NCBI RefSeq assembly: GCF_036013525.1
Contig: NZ_CP107853.1
Coordinates: 4,216,001-4,280,000 of the forward strand
Direction of reading: 5' to 3'
Source: Nonomuraea sp. NBC_00507
GTDB taxonomy: Bacteria; Actinomycetota; Actinomycetes; Streptosporangiales; Streptosporangiaceae
Length of the DNA: 64,000 bases
Shown here: positions 5,647-17,393 of the stretch, in pieces
Layout of the letters: each line of letters begins with the position of its first letter
How positions within the stretch are numbered: the first letter of the stretch is position 1
Position numbers and translations under genes: made by a program
Notes under the pieces: model-generated
Databases searched by the model: none
Told to the model about the DNA's origin: nothing
The model's input: only the letters and a program-made list of their open reading frames with translations

Positions 5647-7254
5647 TCACGGGCGATCCGGGTGGGCGTTCGCGCGCCCACCCGGTGCCCGATCGGCGTA
5701 CGTGGCCAGCATCAAGGTCCGGATGGGCGCGAGAAGGCGGTACCGGCGTCCGGCCGGTGTCTCTTCCGAGAGCACCAGGCCGCGATCGACGAGGGCGGCC
5801 AGGGCGTTGAGCGGCTGAGCGGTCAGGCTCTCGAGGCTGAACTGCCGGCCCAGCGCGGCCGCCTGGAGCAGCAGGGTCTGCTCGGGCTCCGTCAGCTCGC
5901 CCCACGCCGCGTCGAGGCTCTTCGCGAACGGAGCCGTCGCGTCCATCAGCGAGCTCAGATCTGACGCGGCCAGCGTGGCGAGGGGGAGGGCGCGCAGCAA
6001 CGAGGCGAGGAACTCCACGACGGCCGGGATGCCGTCCGCTTGGCCACAGAGGCTGTGTACGTACGACTGGTCGTCGGGGGAGAAGGACAGTCCGGGCACG
6101 GCCTGCGTCGCGCGAAGCCGGAACAGTTTCTCGCACGACGCCTTGTCCAGCGGCCGGGTCACCCAGGTGGCCTCGCCGGACAGCCCGAGCGGCCGATTGG
6201 CCGCAATGAGGACCGCAGTCGAGTCGTCGCCGGCGAGAAACGGTTGTGTCAGCTGCGCTACCAGATCGAGCCGGTCGTCGCAGCCGTCGATCGCGAGGAG
6301 CGTGGCGCCGGCGTCGGCGTGCTTGGCCACGATCCGCCTGGCCGCATCGTCGCCGGTGAAGTCGCTCAGCCGCACGTACCGGCCACCGGGGTGGGTGAGC
6401 GCGATCTCCGCCGTCAGCCTGGTCTTGCCGACGCCCGGTGGCCCGATGACCGTCACCAGCCGATGTTCGGCCAGCAGCGCGCCTATCCGTTCGCACTCGG
6501 CCGCCCGGCCCAGCAGCCGGGTGCGCGGGCGCGACAATCTGCGGCCGAGGGAATCCGTGTGGGCTTGCTGGAGCTGGGTTCCGGGGCCGATGCCGAGTTC
6601 GGTGGACAGTCGCCTCCTGATGGTGTCGAACACCTGGATGGCCGAGCCCTGCTGGCCGAGCGTGGTCAGACCCGTCATCAATATGGCGTGCGCCGCCTCG
6701 TCCAGAGACTCGGAGTGGCAGAGTGGCTGGATGAGCTTGATCGCCAGGGCGGGGCGTCCCTCGTCGAGCGCGACCTGCGCGGAGCGCCGGATCACGGCGT
6801 CGCGCTCGGTGAGGAGCACCTTGACGAGGCGGGTGTCGACGCGCCTGGCGGGCACGTTGGTGAAGGGGCGGCCACGCCAGAGTCCGAGGGCCTTGGACAG
6901 CGACTGGAACGTGGCATCGCTCCTGGCCGCCTCCCGGCGGAACAGGCCGAGATCGGAGGCGCTCTCGCCGAGGTCGAGGTAGTAGCCGTTGGCGTCGGTG
7001 ACGAGCTGGAGGTCCGTATCGGACTCGCGAAGCCAGGCGCGTAAGCGGCAGGCGGCGAGATAGAGAGCCCCCTTGGGGTCGCGCGGCGGATCGTGCCGCC
7101 AGACCACGTCGATCAGCGCCTGAGCGGCGATGGGCGTGGAGGCGGAGGCGAGCAGGCCGAGCAGCGCCCGCAGGACCGGCGCGGGTGGAGCATGGAGGGC
7201 GCCGTCTCTGACCAGACCGACTGGACCGAGCACCCCTACGACGACGTTGCGCAA
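5647..7254 (-). CDS. SARP/AfsR-type regulator with BTAD and NB-ARC-like ATPase
   Basis: Pathway-type transcriptional activator of the Streptomyces antibiotic regulatory protein class. The 535-residue product has an OmpR-like winged-helix DNA-binding domain (about 1-95), a bacterial transcriptional activator domain (about 100-245), then a P-loop ATPase with Walker A GPPGVGKTR near residue 270 and a Walker B-like LLAIDGCDD. The long C-terminal TPR region of AfsR is absent, so it is a shortened AfsR type. The TTG start at 7254 is supported by GGGGAGG six bases upstream and a TATGAT -10 box at 7281-7286. It is divergent from the secreted-protein/Mau-like operon, whose promoter holds SARP-style direct repeats. 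The stop lies 1 bp from the ilvC stop (convergent). Confidence 0.88.
   Translation of the reverse strand: MRNVVVGVLGPVGLVRDGALHAPPAPVLRALLGLLASASTPIAAQALIDVVWRHDPPRDPKGALYLAACRLRAWLRESDTDLQLVTDANGYYLDLGESASDLGLFRREAARSDATFQSLSKALGLWRGRPFTNVPARRVDTRLVKVLLTERDAVIRRSAQVALDEGRPALAIKLIQPLCHSESLDEAAHAILMTGLTTLGQQGSAIQVFDTIRRRLSTELGIGPGTQLQQAHTDSLGRRLSRPRTRLLGRAAECERIGALLAEHRLVTVIGPPGVGKTRLTAEIALTHPGGRYVRLSDFTGDDAARRIVAKHADAGATLLAIDGCDDRLDLVAQLTQPFLAGDDSTAVLIAANRPLGLSGEATWVTRPLDKASCEKLFRLRATQAVPGLSFSPDDQSYVHSLCGQADGIPAVVEFLASLLRALPLATLAASDLSSLMDATAPFAKSLDAAWGELTEPEQTLLLQAAALGRQFSLESLTAQPLNALAALVDRGLVLSEETPAGRRYRLLAPIRTLMLATYADRAPGGRANAHPDRP
5651..5690. terminator. Bidirectional hairpin between ilvC and the SARP gene
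   Basis: CCGGGTGGGCG (5658-5668) pairs with CGCCCACCCGG (5675-5685) over a six-base loop, and an outer GGGC/GCCC pair brackets it. It starts 6 bp after the ilvC stop and sits inside the last codons of the leftward regulator gene, so it can terminate transcripts from both sides. There is no T-run. Confidence 0.65.
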
Positions 7255-7426: not shown

Positions 7427-7846
7427 ATGCGCTCGCTATCGCTCGCTGCATCGGTGGCCCTGGCCGCCTCCGTCCTGCTGACGGCCTCTCCCGCCAACGC
7501 GGCAACCCCACAAGGTGTCTGCGGATCCGGCTACTCCGTCGTCGACTCGCTGCCCATCTCCACCGGGAAGCTCTGGGCCACGGTGTACCTGCTGTACAAC
7601 AGCGGCAACGGCTACAACTGCGTGGTCACGATGAAGAAGACCGACCTCTCCGTGGCCACGTTCACCGAGGCGCGGCTGCAGGTCAGCGGATCGTCCACGA
7701 TCCACCGAAACAACGGCAATTTCTTCGAGTACGCGGGTCCGGTCCGGGCGTACGCCCGAGGCAAGTGCGTCCAGTTCGGCGGCACGGCCTCCGACCGGGG
7801 CGGCCAGAGGTTCTCGAGCCTGAGCCCGTGGGGCCACTGCGGATGA
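7427..7846 (+). CDS. Secreted spore-associated-protein-A-like protein
   Basis: A 139-residue exported protein with a clear Sec signal peptide: basic start MRSLSL, hydrophobic core and cleavage after SPANA. The mature part contains CGSGY..., GYNCVVTMKK and a C-terminal WGHCG, and resembles the family called spore-associated protein A in Streptomyces, whose function is not established. Four cysteines in the mature part suggest two disulfides. I chose ATG 7427 rather than the upstream TTG at 7412 because the signal peptide begins there and a -10-like box ends 7 nt before it. It is the first gene of the operon controlled from the repeat-bearing promoter; the next gene starts after 27 bp. Confidence 0.75.
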   Translation: MRSLSLAASVALAASVLLTASPANAATPQGVCGSGYSVVDSLPISTGKLWATVYLLYNSGNGYNCVVTMKKTDLSVATFTEARLQVSGSSTIHRNNGNFFEYAGPVRAYARGKCVQFGGTASDRGGQRFSSLSPWGHCG

Positions 7847-7873
7847 GCACCAACCACACAGAGGAGCGATGAG

Positions 7874-8554
7874 GTGAAAGATCGTACGCCGGACGGCCGC
7901 ACCCTCGTGGTCGACGGAAATTCGCTGCCCTTCCTTAACTCCTGGGCCTACGTCTTCTGGATGCACGGTCCCGACGGCGCCTTCCGCGCCCAGGTCGTGC
8001 CCGCCGGCTCGGCGGAGATCCTGGGCAAGCAGCTCGGCGACTGGCCGCGCTACAAGGTCCGCGAGATCGCCCACAACGGCGGACGGATCCTCTCGCTCGA
8101 GGACGCTTCCATCGGCGGGACCACTTTCGTATGGGTGGGCCCGCAGCACGAGATCGCCACCTACATCGGCGGGACGAACGTCCCCCTGGAGATCTTCATG
8201 GACTGGCTCGCCCAGTTCGATATCCAGGACTCGCCCACCGGCCTGACCATGCTTCCCCGTCCGGGATCGCGGGTGCGATATGGGCGGATGCTCGCGTTCA
8301 ACACGATCGACCAGGTGTGCTCCGTGCAAATCAAGCCGAAGGGCGACGTCACGGACGCATTGCCGCGCAGTACGGGCAAGCGCGTGCGCGGTGGGTCCAT
8401 GTGGCGCTCCGACGAGTACGACGAGCAAGGAAATCTGAAGGTGCGCTCGGCCATCGTGGTCAACGACACCACCGCCACGACGATCGTGGCCGCCAAGCCG
8501 GACGACCCGGCGTTCGTCGGCGTGGTCGAATCGGTGAGCTGCGGGCTGAGCTGA
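7874..8554 (+). CDS. Unknown 226-aa protein in the Mau-like cluster
   Basis: I do not recognise this family. The 226-residue product has no signal peptide or membrane segment; it starts with a polar stretch, is rich in aromatic residues (SWAYVFWMHG, MDWLAQFD) and ends in VSCGLS. It has only two cysteines. GTG at 7874 is preceded by GAGGAG at a suitable distance. Its stop overlaps the ATG of the next gene (TGATG), so it is co-translated with the MauD-like thioredoxin. A cytoplasmic partner or maturation role for the exported Cys-rich protein is possible, but nothing in the sequence proves it. Confidence 0.7.
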   Translation: MKDRTPDGRTLVVDGNSLPFLNSWAYVFWMHGPDGAFRAQVVPAGSAEILGKQLGDWPRYKVREIAHNGGRILSLEDASIGGTTFVWVGPQHEIATYIGGTNVPLEIFMDWLAQFDIQDSPTGLTMLPRPGSRVRYGRMLAFNTIDQVCSVQIKPKGDVTDALPRSTGKRVRGGSMWRSDEYDEQGNLKVRSAIVVNDTTATTIVAAKPDDPAFVGVVESVSCGLS

Positions 8555-9063
8555 TGCAGAACATCATGAACACCATCGCGGTCCTGGCCCTGCTCGGTAC
8601 CGTGATCGCGCTCTTCGCCCTGTCCGCGCTCCTCAAGATGGTGCGCGATCTGCAGAACGAGGTCCGCGGCATGGCTTCGGTCGCGCCCGTTCCGACCATG
8701 CAACGGTCGGTGCCCCGCTTCGCCTCGGCCGACGGGCTGCCGACCTTCGTGCTGGTGGTGCGGGAAGAGTGTTACCTCTGTGCCGAGCGGGCGCAGCGGC
8801 TGGCGCTCGCCCCCGGCTCCGCCGTACAGGGGCACTTGGTCCTGCTCGCCGCGACCCCGGGATGCGCCGACTGGGTGGCGAGCACGGACGTGACGGCGAT
8901 CATCGACGCCGACCTGCTCGGCACGGTCGCGGTCGGTGCCACGCCATCGCTGGTGAAGTACGCCGCCGACGGCACGGAGGAGTGGCGGCGGGCAGTCGGC
9001 TCCGACGAAGACCTGGACACCTACCTCGGCGTGTCCGCACAAGAACCTATCGAAGTGAGGTGA
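8554..9063 (+). CDS. MauD-like membrane-anchored thioredoxin
   Basis: A 169-residue protein with an N-terminal membrane anchor (about residues 5-27) followed by a thioredoxin-like domain. The active-site motif is CYLC in the sequence REECYLCAER, after FVLVV, and GATPSLVKY provides the typical cis-proline loop (TP). This matches MauD, the predicted disulfide carrier needed for methylamine dehydrogenase small-subunit maturation. The ATG overlaps the upstream stop and the next gene, a Cys-rich Tat protein, starts 5 bp later. It probably acts outside the membrane with the MauE-like protein at 10276 to form or shuffle disulfides in that neighbour. Confidence 0.78.
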   Translation: MQNIMNTIAVLALLGTVIALFALSALLKMVRDLQNEVRGMASVAPVPTMQRSVPRFASADGLPTFVLVVREECYLCAERAQRLALAPGSAVQGHLVLLAATPGCADWVASTDVTAIIDADLLGTVAVGATPSLVKYAADGTEEWRRAVGSDEDLDTYLGVSAQEPIEVR

Positions 9064-9068
9064 GCTGG

Positions 9069-9560
9069 ATGACCGACGTCGCACGTTACTGGGATGGCGT
9101 CCCGTCAGTGGACGATGAGCCTGCCAAGCGGGCCGGGCTCGGCACGCTCGTCCCATCGCGCAGAACGATGATGAAGTCCATCGTGGCGCTGGGCGGCGCC
9201 CTCGCCCTCAACGTCGTCAGCGCGCTCCCGCCGGGCCGGCCGAAGAGCGCGAGCGCGGCAGTGGGCACCGAGCATCTCAACTGCGCCGGCTACAACAACT
9301 ATTCCGGTTACAACAACAACACCAAAGCCTGCGTCGGCTTCACCTACAGCAGGAGTTACTGCGGCTCCGACGGCTGGTTCATCAGGTCGAGCGGCACCTG
9401 CTACAACAGCTACCCGATCTCCATCTGCGGTGAGGGCAGCTACAGCAACAGGAACGCGTGGCGCTGGACCCACAGCGGCACGCCGTACCGGTGCGCCGAC
9501 GGCAAGGTCGCGACCTGCGGTGGTACCAGCACCTACATCTGCTCCTGGTCGAATCCCTGA
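9069..9560 (+). CDS. Tat-exported eight-cysteine protein (candidate redox-system substrate)
   Basis: A 163-residue protein with a long N-region, a twin-arginine motif SRRTMMK, a hydrophobic stretch (IVALGGALALNVV) and an Ala-rich cleavage region (SASAA). The mature part of about 100 residues has exactly eight cysteines and many Asn, Tyr, Gly and Ser. Methylamine dehydrogenase light chains are also small, Cys-rich, twin-arginine-like exported proteins matured by MauD/MauE, and the neighbours here are MauD- and MauE-like. However, the sequence is only loosely similar to MauA and I see no heavy chain. The mature part contains Trp in DGWF, AWRW and CSWS, so a Trp-derived cofactor cannot be excluded. 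An unclassified secreted disulfide-rich protein is the safest call. Confidence 0.72.
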   Translation: MTDVARYWDGVPSVDDEPAKRAGLGTLVPSRRTMMKSIVALGGALALNVVSALPPGRPKSASAAVGTEHLNCAGYNNYSGYNNNTKACVGFTYSRSYCGSDGWFIRSSGTCYNSYPISICGEGSYSNRNAWRWTHSGTPYRCADGKVATCGGTSTYICSWSNP

Positions 9561-9718
9561 TGAAGCGCGCGCTCCAGGCGTCCCCGATCGCGCTCGGCCT
9601 GGCGGTTTGCGCGATCGCCCTGGCGGCGAGCCACCTCACGTGGAGCCTCTCGCTCGACGTGCTGGCGTGGACCCTGCTCGGGGTCACCGCCGGGTACTCG
9701 CTGTCCGGGTCGGTTTGA
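9560..9718 (+). CDS. Short membrane protein or N-terminal part of an interrupted membrane protein
   Basis: This 52-codon ORF overlaps the upstream stop (TGATG) and encodes two hydrophobic helices ending GYSLSGSV before TGA at 9716-9718. The same reading frame stays open after that TGA through to 10273, and the sequence directly after it (LLTSSVWRGKLGAFVIG) looks like coding membrane protein although no ATG, GTG or TTG is available before 9791. So this is either a genuine small protein or the amino end of one membrane protein split by a nonsense codon. Confidence 0.55.
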   Translation: MKRALQASPIALGLAVCAIALAASHLTWSLSLDVLAWTLLGVTAGYSLSGSV

Positions 9719-9790
9719 AGCCTCAACTCAGCGGATCTGCTGACCTCGTCGGTCTGGCGAGGCAAGCTGGGCGCGTTCGTCATCGGGCTG

Positions 9791-10273
9791 ATGCTCGGCG
9801 CGCTGGTCTCCGGTCTCGTCGTGGGGATCGTCGGCGGTCTGGCCGCCGTGCTGCCCCTGACGGTGCGCCTCTGGGTGCTCGTTCCGGTCGCTGCTGTGAT
9901 CCTGGCCTTCGAACTGGCCGGGAGGCCGCTCTCGTTGCCGCAGAACCGGCGGCTCGTGCCGCAGGAGGTCGTCAACCACGGTAGCTTCGACGGTCCTCTG
10001 CAGTTCGGCTTCGAGATGGGCACCGGTGTGCGGACCTTCACCCCGACCGCCCTGCCTCACCTGCTGGTCCTGGTCACCGTCCTCGTGGGCGGGATCGGTC
10101 AGGGGCTGCTGGTCGGGATCGGGTTCGGACTGGGGCGTGCGCTCATGCCGACTGCTCGCGCGCTGAGCGACGATCCCCGGCAATGGGACAACGCGATGTT
10201 GCGGTCGATCGTATGGGTGGGCCGCCTGTGCGCGGTCGGCTTCCTGTTGTCGCTGCTCATCGTGGTGATGTGA
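9791..10273 (+). CDS. Polytopic membrane protein in the Mau-like cluster (possibly 5'-truncated)
   Basis: From the ATG at 9791 the product is 160 residues with about four membrane helices (VSGLVVGIVGGLAAV, LWVLVPVAAVILAF, LLVLVTVLVGGIGQG and VGFLLSLLIVV) and a polar middle containing PQNRRLVPQE. I do not recognise the family. Coding-like sequence extends upstream in frame to the TGA at 9716, which suggests that the natural protein began further left and that the annotated start is a default. It ends 2 bp before the GTG of the MauE-like gene. A role as a membrane partner of the redox pair is inference from position. Confidence 0.55.
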   Translation: MLGALVSGLVVGIVGGLAAVLPLTVRLWVLVPVAAVILAFELAGRPLSLPQNRRLVPQEVVNHGSFDGPLQFGFEMGTGVRTFTPTALPHLLVLVTVLVGGIGQGLLVGIGFGLGRALMPTARALSDDPRQWDNAMLRSIVWVGRLCAVGFLLSLLIVVM

Positions 10274-10275
10274 CA

Positions 10276-10779
10276 GTGGCCGTGCTCAACGCTCTGTGTG
10301 CCGGGCTGGCGCTGGCGGGTGCGATGCTGCTGCTCTACGCCTCGCTGCGCCGCCTGGCCGGCGGCGGGAGCCTGACTCGTACGGTCTCCGCGCACGGCAT
10401 CCTGCCGCCCGCGTCGGCCAGGCTCGCCGAGCCCATCGAGCTGGTCGTGGGCCTGTCCATGTCCGTTTCGTGGCTTGCGGGATGGCTGCTGCCCTTCCTG
10501 GCCGGGGCGGTCTGGTACGCGTTCCTGGCCGGATATCTGGCGCTGGTGCTCCGCAAGAAGGGCAGGGTGCCGTGCGGCTGCCTGGATGAGGAGAGCCCGG
10601 TGACGCCGGCGAAGATCGGGCGGGCCGCCGTGATCGCGGTGGCGTGCGTCGCCGTGGCCGGGAGCGCCCCGCCTCCCGGCCTAGGGCTGCGGCTGGTTCA
10701 CCTGCCGGTGGCACTCTTCGTCGCGGCGCTCCTGGTCCTGCTCGATCGAGTGCTGGCTCTTCGCGAAGTACATCCATAA
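10276..10779 (+). CDS. MauE/DoxX-like redox membrane protein
   Basis: A 167-residue integral membrane protein with four or five helices and a CGC motif (RVPCGCLDE) on a loop after the third helix. This is the layout of the MauE/DoxX family, in which the cysteine pair passes electrons between a quinone or cytoplasmic donor and periplasmic thioredoxins such as MauD. The GTG at 10276 is 2 bp after the preceding stop and gives an N-terminus beginning in the first helix. It is the last gene of the operon; a strong hairpin follows within 6 bp. Together with the CYLC thioredoxin it forms a complete disulfide-handling pair. Confidence 0.78.
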   Translation: MAVLNALCAGLALAGAMLLLYASLRRLAGGGSLTRTVSAHGILPPASARLAEPIELVVGLSMSVSWLAGWLLPFLAGAVWYAFLAGYLALVLRKKGRVPCGCLDEESPVTPAKIGRAAVIAVACVAVAGSAPPPGLGLRLVHLPVALFVAALLVLLDRVLALREVHP

Positions 10780-10784
10780 AGGTC

Positions 10785-10817
10785 CACCGCGTAGCGGCGG
10801 CCCGCCGCTACGCGGTG
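10785..10817. terminator. Strong bidirectional terminator hairpin
   Basis: CACCGCGTAGCGGCGG at 10785-10800 is exactly complementary to 10802-10817, giving up to 16 bp of stem with a very tight loop. It lies between the convergent MauE-like gene and the leftward ArsR gene and overlaps the ArsR stop codon. Confidence 0.8.
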
Positions 10818-11179
10818 CGGCCCGGCTCGGCGACAGCATGCTGATCGCTTTCAAGGGCGGGCCGGTCGAGGTGGTCGGCGTGGAAGAGGCCCTCGGTCAG
10901 GAGACGGCGTACGTGCTCGTCCGCCGCGCGGTAATACACGAACGTCCCCTCGCGCCGCCCCTTGACCAGCCCGGCCAGGCGCAGCTTGGCCAGGTGCTGG
11001 CTGACGGCGGTGGGGGCGGCGTCGGCGAGCTCGGCCAGGCAGGCGACGGACGACTCGCCCTGCAGCAGCGCCCACAGGATCTTGATGCGGGTCGGGTCGG
11101 AGAGCAGACGGAACGACTCCGCCGCCAGGTGCACCTGTTCCTCGTTCGGCATGTCGAAGTCGGGCAGTGACGTGTGCAT
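10808..11179 (-). CDS. ArsR/SmtB-family metal-sensing repressor
   Basis: A 123-residue winged-helix repressor. After an N-terminal segment it shows the ArsR helix-turn-helix (AAPTAVSQHLAKLRLAGLV) and wing (REGTFVYYRAADEHV). The C-terminal helix reads DEH, ten residues, then HADH, which exactly fits the alpha-5 metal site D-x-H-x10-H-x2-H of CzrA/SmtB/NmtR-type sensors for zinc, cobalt or nickel. It is divergent from a P1B-type ATPase, the typical partner. TATGCT (minus strand, 11186-11191) lies 6 nt before the ATG, so the transcript is probably leaderless. Metal release should derepress both genes. Confidence 0.88.
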   Translation of the reverse strand: MHTSLPDFDMPNEEQVHLAAESFRLLSDPTRIKILWALLQGESSVACLAELADAAPTAVSQHLAKLRLAGLVKGRREGTFVYYRAADEHVRRLLTEGLFHADHLDRPALESDQHAVAEPGRTA

Positions 11180-11205
11180 GCCGCCAGCATAGCCGTCGAC
11201 CCCCT

Positions 11206-11239
11206 TATTTGCGTATCTGCGTGAATGCGCATGTACGAT
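11206..11239. promoter_or_regulatory. Divergent arsR/ATPase control region with TGCG repeats
   Basis: TTTGCGTAT, CTGCGTGA and ATGCGCAT follow each other at 11208-11232 and form overlapping direct and inverted TGCG units. The rightward -10 box is TACGAT (11234-11239); the leftward one is at 11186-11191. The repeats therefore sit over the -35 regions of both promoters, where an ArsR dimer would block them. Confidence 0.5.
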
Positions 11240-11245
11240 GCCACG

Positions 11246-13253
<2,008 letters not shown>

Positions 13254-13261
<8 letters not shown>

Positions 13262-15377: not shown

Positions 15378-15432
15378 CCGTTCCTAGGGACTGAGCATGA
15401 GTTGCTCATGCTCAGCCGCATGCCCCGAACGG
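15378..15432. terminator. Extended hairpin at the 3' end of the TnpB-like gene and GT operon
   Basis: CTGAGCATGAG (15391-15401) pairs perfectly with CTCATGCTCAG (15405-15415) over a three-base loop, enclosed by CCGTTC (15378-15383) and GAACGG (15427-15432). It begins just after the small membrane gene and covers the last codons of the leftward TnpB-like gene. It may terminate transcription on either side; in TnpB systems this is also where the guide RNA scaffold would lie. Confidence 0.6.
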
Positions 15433-17000
15433 TGTTGGGCACACTGGTCGCCCGCGTTCTCGCCACATCCGGGCGGCACGCATCCGGTGCGTGGTCCGGG
15501 AATGCGGGGACGGGGTCCCTCACCCCCAGAAACATCCGGTCCGGCCTGGACGGTCCGATGCCCCGCACGATCCCTCCGGTCGTGCGGGGGCGGTGCCGTC
15601 CGTCGCCGGATCGCATGCCCCTGGGCGCGTCTGCCGATCGCCACGGCAGCCGCGTCGTGGCGAGTCGTCGTCTGATTCTTCTTGTTCGTTCTTGTCAGTG
15701 GGGCCTGCCAGTGCTGGGCACCCCACTTGCTGGTGTACGCCGGATCCACCGCGATGATCGCGATGCCCGCGGCGGCGGCCATCGAGACCAGCCGGGCGCG
15801 CAGCCGACCGGTGGGCATGCCGGAGATGAGCTGCCGGAACCATTTGTGGCGGCCATGCTTCTCCCGGGTCTTCTCTGCCGCGAAATCCAGATTCTCGATC
15901 GCGATCGCGGTCACCCCGCACGCCTTCGCCCAGGCCAGCAGTTGTGTCAGTGCGTGCCGCGCTTGGGCGTCGCGGTGCTCGGCGGTGCCCGACAGGGCAA
16001 AGGGGAAGCGGCGCGGCCGGCCGATCGGGTTGCCATGCACATCCAGATGCCAGGCAGCCAGGTGGTCGGCGTTGGTGTCCATCCCGATCACCCCGTGGGC
16101 CAGCGCCGCCGGCAAGGGGATGGCGGGGGTGGGCGGAAGCTGCCAGGACGCGGTCAGGTACCAGCGGCCCCGGTCGGCGTCCAGGTGGATGCGGTAGGCC
16201 ACCGCCCGATTCGCCTGCACCCGGTCGGCCCACTCGACGCGCCGGTGGGCGAACCGTACCCGGGCCGACAGCACATACCGGCCGTGCGAGGCGTTGGCCA
16301 GATGGGCCAGCGGGGCGGGCAGCTTGAGCGACACCTCACCGTCAGGGGTGACGCGGATGGTCTCGTTGCCGTACCGCTTGCCGGACTCCCCGTCGGCTCG
16401 CAGGAACCAGCGCGCGGCCTCCCACCGTTCACGCCATCCGGCCTCGTCGAGCTGCGCGGCCTCCAGATGGTGCCGGTTGCCGGCCAGCCGTTTGCCGCCC
16501 CGCACGATGTGCACCCGCCCGGCCTGCCAGTCGGCCCGCACGGCGGCCAGCCGGTCTTGAAGCACCCGCAAGCGGCGGGACTTGGCGAACCACTCCGTGC
16601 GCGAGCGGTACCCTGCCGGGGCGTCCTTGGTGGCCTTCTGCCCCACCGGCACTGACAGCCGGCGCATGATCGTCGCGATCCCGGCCTCGAGGCTCTGAAT
16701 GTGCGCGAGCTGGCAGCGGCGGGCCAGCGCCCACTGATCATGCGACGTCCCGGCCCACTGTGCCGACGAGGCCGCGGTCAGTTCCCGCTTCCGTTCCGCC
16801 CACCGGTCCGCGTCGTGCGCCAGCCCATCCCGGCAGCGCACCGCGAGGTCCTTCGATGCCAGAGCACCGAGATGCGCCCCCACCAGCCGGAGCACCGTCT
16901 CGTCCTGGGCGGTCAGCCCCCTAAGCCGGTCACGGACCGCCACACCGCAGGGAGCGGCCGCGACGAACGGCGCTTCGATCGGCCGCAACTGCTCAGCCAT
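15384..17000 (-). CDS. TnpB-like RuvC nuclease of the IS200/IS605 group, no zinc finger
   Basis: A 538-residue protein related to TnpB (OrfB of IS605-type elements), the RNA-guided DNA nuclease ancestral to Cas12. The RuvC triad is visible: Asp in VIGMDTNADHLAAW, Glu in AIENLDFAAEKTR and Asp in TTRHDAAAVAIG. The four-cysteine zinc finger that normally stands between the second and third motifs is missing; that segment reads VDPAYTSKWGAQHW and continues with no Cys. No TnpA is nearby. ATG 17000 is chosen as the start of the conserved part; the frame is open to 17174 but that stretch looks non-coding. The 3' end carries a strong hairpin. It is probably a host-resident or immobile TnpB relative, a group often annotated as TnpB-related in Streptomyces. 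Confidence 0.8.
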   Translation of the reverse strand: MAEQLRPIEAPFVAAAPCGVAVRDRLRGLTAQDETVLRLVGAHLGALASKDLAVRCRDGLAHDADRWAERKRELTAASSAQWAGTSHDQWALARRCQLAHIQSLEAGIATIMRRLSVPVGQKATKDAPAGYRSRTEWFAKSRRLRVLQDRLAAVRADWQAGRVHIVRGGKRLAGNRHHLEAAQLDEAGWRERWEAARWFLRADGESGKRYGNETIRVTPDGEVSLKLPAPLAHLANASHGRYVLSARVRFAHRRVEWADRVQANRAVAYRIHLDADRGRWYLTASWQLPPTPAIPLPAALAHGVIGMDTNADHLAAWHLDVHGNPIGRPRRFPFALSGTAEHRDAQARHALTQLLAWAKACGVTAIAIENLDFAAEKTREKHGRHKWFRQLISGMPTGRLRARLVSMAAAAGIAIIAVDPAYTSKWGAQHWQAPLTRTNKKNQTTTRHDAAAVAIGRRAQGHAIRRRTAPPPHDRRDRAGHRTVQAGPDVSGGEGPRPRIPGPRTGCVPPGCGENAGDQCAQHRSGHAAEHEQLMLSP

Positions 17001-17393
17001 GCGCCGCGGCCCCCAGCACGATGCGGGCTCAACCGTTGACCGAGCGGCAGAATATGGCACCGATGGGTAGAACATGTGAGCGAAACGCAAGCCCTTGCGC
17101 CCCATGTGGCCGTGGCCGTCACGCTCGCCGGCGCACCCCGCGGTCTCGACCAACCCATGAGGTTCACGGCCCACACTCCGGCATCAGCCCTCGTGATTCC
17201 GTGCACACTTACGCACACTCAAAGAACAACTGTTGCCGACCCCTGGACCGCCTCTCTCGTCGAGGGGCGCTCACTCACATCGGGTTGAGCGGCGTTCGGG
17301 CGGGCTGATATCGCTTTGCTCGAACAAGTTGACTCACGATCTTAGATGCACAAGATTGTTCGCGTCCCTTTGGACCGTCCCAAGGAAACGCGA
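17001..17393. other. Intergenic region, no gene seen
   Basis: About 390 bp between the leftward TnpB-like gene and the rightward secreted protein. I see no convincing ORF or RNA gene. It has short CACACT repeats near 17200-17220 and a TTGACT motif at about 17327. GC content is lower than in the genes. Confidence 0.5.

Follow-up and report, generated by a model that had tools for sequence, protein, structure and literature searches.

The closest described relative of the locus reported here is the mau operon of Paracoccus denitrificans. The locus lies in a 64,000-nt stretch of the genome of the soil bacterium Nonomuraea sp. NBC_00507 (contig NZ_CP107853.1, forward strand, positions 4,216,001–4,280,000), which is referred to below as the window and whose numbering is used throughout. 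An operon at nt 7874–10779 is very probably, judged by sequence comparison, a maturation cassette of the Mau kind whose membrane protein, here called seleno-MauF, is a MauF relative with a UGA codon (nt 9716–9718) decoded as selenocysteine (Sec). As in the mau operon, relatives of MauD, MauE and MauF stand beside a multi-cysteine protein predicted to be exported by the twin-arginine translocation (Tat) pathway, and the proposed Sec aligns with Cys79 of Paracoccus MauF. The window differs in having Sec for Cys, another client protein and an extra gene for a 226-aa protein. No methylamine dehydrogenase was found in the genome, where profiles for the heavy chain (PF06433) and for MauA (PF02975) returned nothing while the controls were silent too, and the heavy chain is likely to be absent.

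For the pairing of MauE or MauD with Cys-rich genes, the nearest antecedent is the decRiPPter study, which proposes three Streptomyces families with mauE, one with mauD, each predicted precursor having at least eight Cys (PMC7794033). These families share with the window the placement of mauE or mauD homologues beside genes for proteins with eight or more Cys. Its main text makes no mention of selenium, MauF, CcdA, DsbD, thioredoxin, Tat signal, twin-arginine or TGA.

An in-frame TGA in a MauF homologue

The membrane gene (DE, nt 9560–10273, plus strand) is a single frame of 237 codons interrupted by a TGA at nt 9716–9718 (plus strand), which would specify Sec at residue 53. Conservation was followed in 31 cassette loci, all of them chosen through protein C, the predicted exported protein; the window and the near-identical locus L023 were both counted. 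All 31 copies of DE, drawn from 30 of these sources (L033 has none), continue in the same frame across the TGA and keep it, never as TAA or TAG. Both flanks are conserved, and most copies read AG[FY]..SGS.-U-S.NSA, where U is the proposed Sec. A wider census of 59 relatives and 394 genomes of the class gave 38 loci. The TGA lies exactly at the motif in 33 of them, including all 14 strong carriers of the 394-genome census, and the remaining five comprise the Cys forms L087 and L105, the decayed copy L090, the weak hit L092 and one locus at a contig end, L106. The same-frame TGA kept in the relatives speaks against a broken gene.

Comparison of the DE profile with MauF (hhalign, three MauF sequences) gave P 95 and E 3.8e-8 over 163 columns, with the TGA falling on Cys79 of Paracoccus MauF. 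The homology spans most of the membrane domain. A sister subfamily matches MauF with an E-value of 8.5e-18 and includes both states of the site, seven genomes having TGA at the same place (TWSP-U-GESML) and two having TGC (STWSPCGISML in G052 and GTWSPCGASML in G148). Annotated Paracoccus MauF carries the same motif as STWSPCGYSS. The window motif is SGSV-U-S and the sister Sec forms read SP-U-G, so that neither has the Cys of the MauF motif TWSPCG. Among 7999 scored candidates, 1303 were database homologues of the sister subfamily, and Cys occupies the site in 109 of the 120 that were listed; the other 11 begin just past the site, as expected of truncated Sec forms.

The AlphaFold2 model of the read-through protein, with Sec modelled as Cys, is of high confidence (predicted local distance difference test score, pLDDT, 91.5; predicted template modelling score, pTM, 0.90) and places residue 53 near the start of the half-helix that follows a break. 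The reactive Cys of DsbD/CcdA proteins occupies a place comparable to this broken helix around Sec53. One sister Sec form matches Pfam DsbD_TM (PF02683; E 6e-4, 19.6 bits) at a score below the family cut-off of 27.1 bits, and the window protein itself has no PF02683 match.

The partners of DE are of the Mau type. Protein B (nt 8554–9063, plus strand) is a MauD-like membrane-anchored thioredoxin with a CYLC motif; its family matches MauD in profile comparison (P 97.1, E 5e-11), both Cys of the CxxC motif (C73 and C76) are invariant in 13 aligned members, and protein B alone has no Pfam match. Protein F (nt 10270–10779, plus strand) is a MauE-type membrane protein with a CGC motif, scoring 40.9 bits against PF07291 (Pfam cut-off 27). 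With a MauF relative as its membrane gene, the cassette carries all of MauD, MauE and MauF. The operon opens with protein A (226 aa, nt 7874–8554, plus strand), of unknown family, with no match in Pfam or NCBIfam. Neighbouring genes overlap by 1–4 bases or are 5 bases apart, and the GTG start of F overlaps the seleno-MauF stop. An earlier interpretation of the window, made without database searches (the sequence-only reading), had given this gene order, which holds; its 'membrane protein(s)' are replaced by one 237-codon frame with a TGA.

SECIS-like hairpin and selenocysteine machinery

A hairpin resembling a selenocysteine insertion sequence (SECIS) element lies at nt 9745–9761 (plus strand). 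Its seven-pair stem begins 26 nt past the TGA and GGU stands in the loop region. Across 29 distinct copies, 99.0% of cells are paired and six of the seven pairs show compensatory changes on both sides; none of 500 shuffles reached any of the five measures. A hairpin model that includes the window site scores this site at 64 bits, the next match in the window being at 11 bits, and recovers five of six sister sites that it did not contain. It gave no match at the site of the two Cys forms or in three MauF loci. In published bacterial SECIS elements the apical loop is small and contains a guanosine (PMC1088965), and the DE stem-loop fits this pattern, with L118 and L145 as exceptions.

The host genome encodes SelA (414 bits), SelB (260 bits) and SelD (371 bits), all above curated cut-offs. 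The selA and selB genes adjoin a tRNA-Sec gene, selD lies elsewhere, and the genome has two more tRNA-Sec genes (anticodon tca). At L115 of the same genome (C1:2557000-2576000) a second tRNA-Sec gene was seen beside an 86-aa SelB-like fragment; no gene of the cassette was recognised nearby.

Linkage to the cassette is also found in relatives. A tRNA-Sec gene (anticodon tca, ARAGORN) lies inside 13 of 29 cassette loci, and gene clusters read as SelB, SelA and SelD occur in 13, 10 and 7 of the 31 loci, respectively; the SelB and SelA labels agree with NCBIfam on the host proteins, and the SelD label is a reading only. At genome level, co-occurrence was scored with tRNA-Sec matches of at least 60 bits, a threshold chosen after a gap between 62 and 55 bits had been seen, which counts against the result. 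Such matches are present in 14/14 genomes with the main TGA form (that of the window) compared with 101/394 overall (p 2.6e-9), in 20/21 genomes with the sister subfamily (p 5e-12) and, within the genus, in 14/14 carriers compared with 23/36 genomes (p 2e-4), p-values that overstate the evidence because related genomes are not independent.

The exported client protein

Protein C (nt 9069–9560, plus strand) is a 163-aa protein with eight Cys and is the predicted Tat-exported client of the cassette. In an alignment of 47 members, six Cys are invariant throughout. C111 and C150 covary, with both (within three columns) in 24 members, neither in 20 and one in three (p 2e-10). The total is six or eight Cys in 45 members, as expected of a disulfide protein. 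W103, W131 and W133 are each found in 46 members, and the motifs NAWRW and YRCADG are kept across the alignment. Besides weak Tat-signal hits there was no Pfam family match, and a structure model of middling quality (pLDDT 72, pTM 0.56) gave no significant fold match.

The sequence-only reading had proposed a Mau-like disulfide system around a Tat-exported, Cys-rich protein with no close match to MauA. The MauD profile match, the MauE Pfam match and the linkage across genera bear this out, and the comparisons with MauA given below agree with it. The two findings that it named as contrary, a strong match of C to an unrelated family and a want of linkage elsewhere, did not appear.

What the client becomes can be read in other ways that leave the selenoprotein unaffected. 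The cassette product may be a secreted, disulfide-rich peptide, akin to ribosomally synthesised and post-translationally modified peptides, and not an enzyme subunit. The decRiPPter families outlined above (PMC7794033) suggest such a product, as does the finding that clients differ between copies. The conserved NAWRW and YRCADG motifs look more like those of a folded protein, and a peptide product is judged rather unlikely. Less likely again, and improbable on balance, is a MauA-like quinocofactor subunit. In its favour are the shared maturation partners, the three nearly invariant Trp and a weak resemblance of the Tat leader of C to that of MauA. This leader resemblance is the whole of the match, however: the profile alignment covers only the leader (P 13), PF02975 matches none of the 47 members whereas a true MauA scores 180 bits, and the genome gave no PF02975 match in the search with silent controls mentioned above. 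Kinship of the mature part of C to MauA is thus not supported by these comparisons.

Other readings of the TGA codon

Several observations weigh against Sec at this codon. The in-frame ratio of nonsynonymous to synonymous polymorphism (pN/pS) is not low, at 0.77 upstream of the TGA and 0.56 downstream, though it is below that of the other frames. The read-through model has no fold match in the PDB at E 1e-3. No second Cys is conserved across the DE alignment, a difference from DsbD/CcdA that makes a DsbD-like internal Cys pair unlikely. L118, which does not form the hairpin, was excluded from the alignment, the hairpin model missed L145, and it gave a chance match in L118 (E 0.009) and a partial one in L132 (E 0.03). 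One genome with the TGA (G188, 68% complete) is without a strong tRNA-Sec, the G061 locus is split over contigs, the Cys form G052 has a middling tRNA-Sec match of 55 bits, and 9 of the 23 genomes of the genus with tRNA-Sec are without the cassette. Lastly, Trp occupies the site in P0069, a main-subfamily database protein from a metagenome contig of 921 bases. There is no Cys at the site among the 117 main-subfamily database proteins listed, the other 116 being without the site motif; the sister subfamily and MauF are accordingly the only groups in which Cys has been observed there.

The Trp in P0069 and the missing Cys forms among the listed main-subfamily proteins are also what would favour low-level read-through of the UGA as Trp, in which case a short protein of 52 residues and a minor long form would be made, both free of selenium. 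Such read-through is very improbable given the Cys in 109 listed sister proteins, the co-occurrence and linkage of tRNA-Sec, and the covariation of the hairpin. An arrangement as two genes, with translation of the second starting anew just past the first, would suit the databases, which mostly hold the downstream part alone, and the 11 of 37 distinct copies with ATG, GTG or TTG at codons 6–12 past the TGA, but can practically be set aside because 26 of the 37 have no such codon in the first 15, because the first five codons are free of them in every copy although their residues are conserved, and because the frame is the same in all copies.

Spread and variation of the cassette

The gene order A-B-C-MauF recurs across genera, with A, B and C in 31/31 loci and MauF in 30/31. 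MauE clusters were recovered in at least 22 of the 31 by a simple gene caller, and another look shows some more. Three copies lie in the host genome: that of the window, L046 and L116. L116 has MauE, a MauD-like protein and MauF with TGA, and is without A; it also encodes a different protein, with 11 Cys and a twin-arginine leader, and a tRNA-Sec gene follows at a distance of about 0.9 kb. Among the remote copies, L111, L116 and L118 have neighbours recognised by model as MauD- and MauE-like, and such genes also adjoin L119, where MauE was identified by reading.

Some further loci are recorded here. L111, L112 and L113, which have MauF of the SPxG type, all carry MauD-like genes, with MauE-like genes in L111 and L113 as well; they also encode a 147–172 aa protein of unknown family, and no obvious Cys-rich client lies alongside. 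L114 (G007:C26:108000-124000) is apparently a decayed cassette: its MauF copy is without the Sec region, while MauE, a downstream 170-aa gene and a nearby tRNA-Sec remain. A gene of about 170 aa past MauE (L025:9771-10286 and relatives) forms a cluster in 18 of the 31 loci, was not found in the window and has no Pfam match over the cut-off.

Upstream of the operon are a gene for a putative secreted SapA-like (spore-associated-like) protein (nt 7427–7846, plus strand), a label from the sequence-only reading without search support, and a divergent gene for a SARP-type regulator (nt 5647–7254, minus strand; PF03704, 79 bits), in which the BTAD match is over the cut-off and the AAA matches are below it. 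The sequence-only reading had placed the SapA-like gene in the operon and the system under SARP control. The SapA-like gene was found within the fetched stretch of only 5 of the 31 loci and is no constant part. SARP control fits the 13 loci with BTAD/SARP-type regulators and is one of several arrangements, ECF-sigma-like regulators occurring in 6 of the 31 (one member of each regulator cluster was checked by Pfam). Taken together, that reading of the cassette is partly supported.

Past the operon, nt 10808–13261 hold an ArsR-like regulator and a heavy-metal P-type ATPase, mutually divergent, and nt 15384–17174 (minus strand) a 596-aa open reading frame resembling an IS605-type TnpB protein; both were recognised from the translations only.

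Proposed role of seleno-MauF

In the pathway envisaged, SelB and tRNA-Sec would decode the UGA as Sec with the aid of the hairpin just downstream. The Tat pathway would export the eight-Cys protein C and, on the outer side of the membrane, the MauD-like thioredoxin would exchange disulfides with this protein. Electrons may then be carried by seleno-MauF and MauE into the membrane or across it, with Sec53 acting at the broken helix and working with the CYLC of the thioredoxin and the CGC of MauE in place of an internal partner. MauD, MauE and seleno-MauF would thus make up a redox relay in the membrane through which an exported protein acquires its disulfides. A wider proposal, put forward tentatively and given somewhat less than an even chance, is that the cassette is a portable, selenium-dependent folding pathway in which a membrane Sec drives the formation of disulfides, or of an unusual cofactor at conserved Trp positions, in changing exported clients, with extra tRNA-Sec genes beside some cassettes.

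Seleno-MauF apparently represents an undescribed selenoprotein family, most of its database entries being truncated hypothetical proteins. It shares a UGA codon, a SECIS-like hairpin, Cys homologues and Sec machinery with the prokaryotic selenoprotein families already listed, 87 of which appear in Table 1 of a published survey (PMC9312934). Compared by name and description, none of these is MauF or a relative. A 2025 predictor paper names nine new families, three of them hypothetical, and none is called MauF (PMC12013277). Another paper describes a thioredoxin-like family as well as multiple tRNA-Sec genes (PMC5330540). No report of a seleno-MauF selenoprotein was found in the literature covered, outside which most subscription papers lie.

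If the assignment is true, a disulfide pathway would have a Sec residue within one of its membrane domains. To our knowledge, the chemistry of MauF has not been established; the alignment singles out Cys79 as its likely reactive residue, which makes the role of MauF directly testable. Many actinomycetes would also gain a candidate reason to keep selenocysteine.

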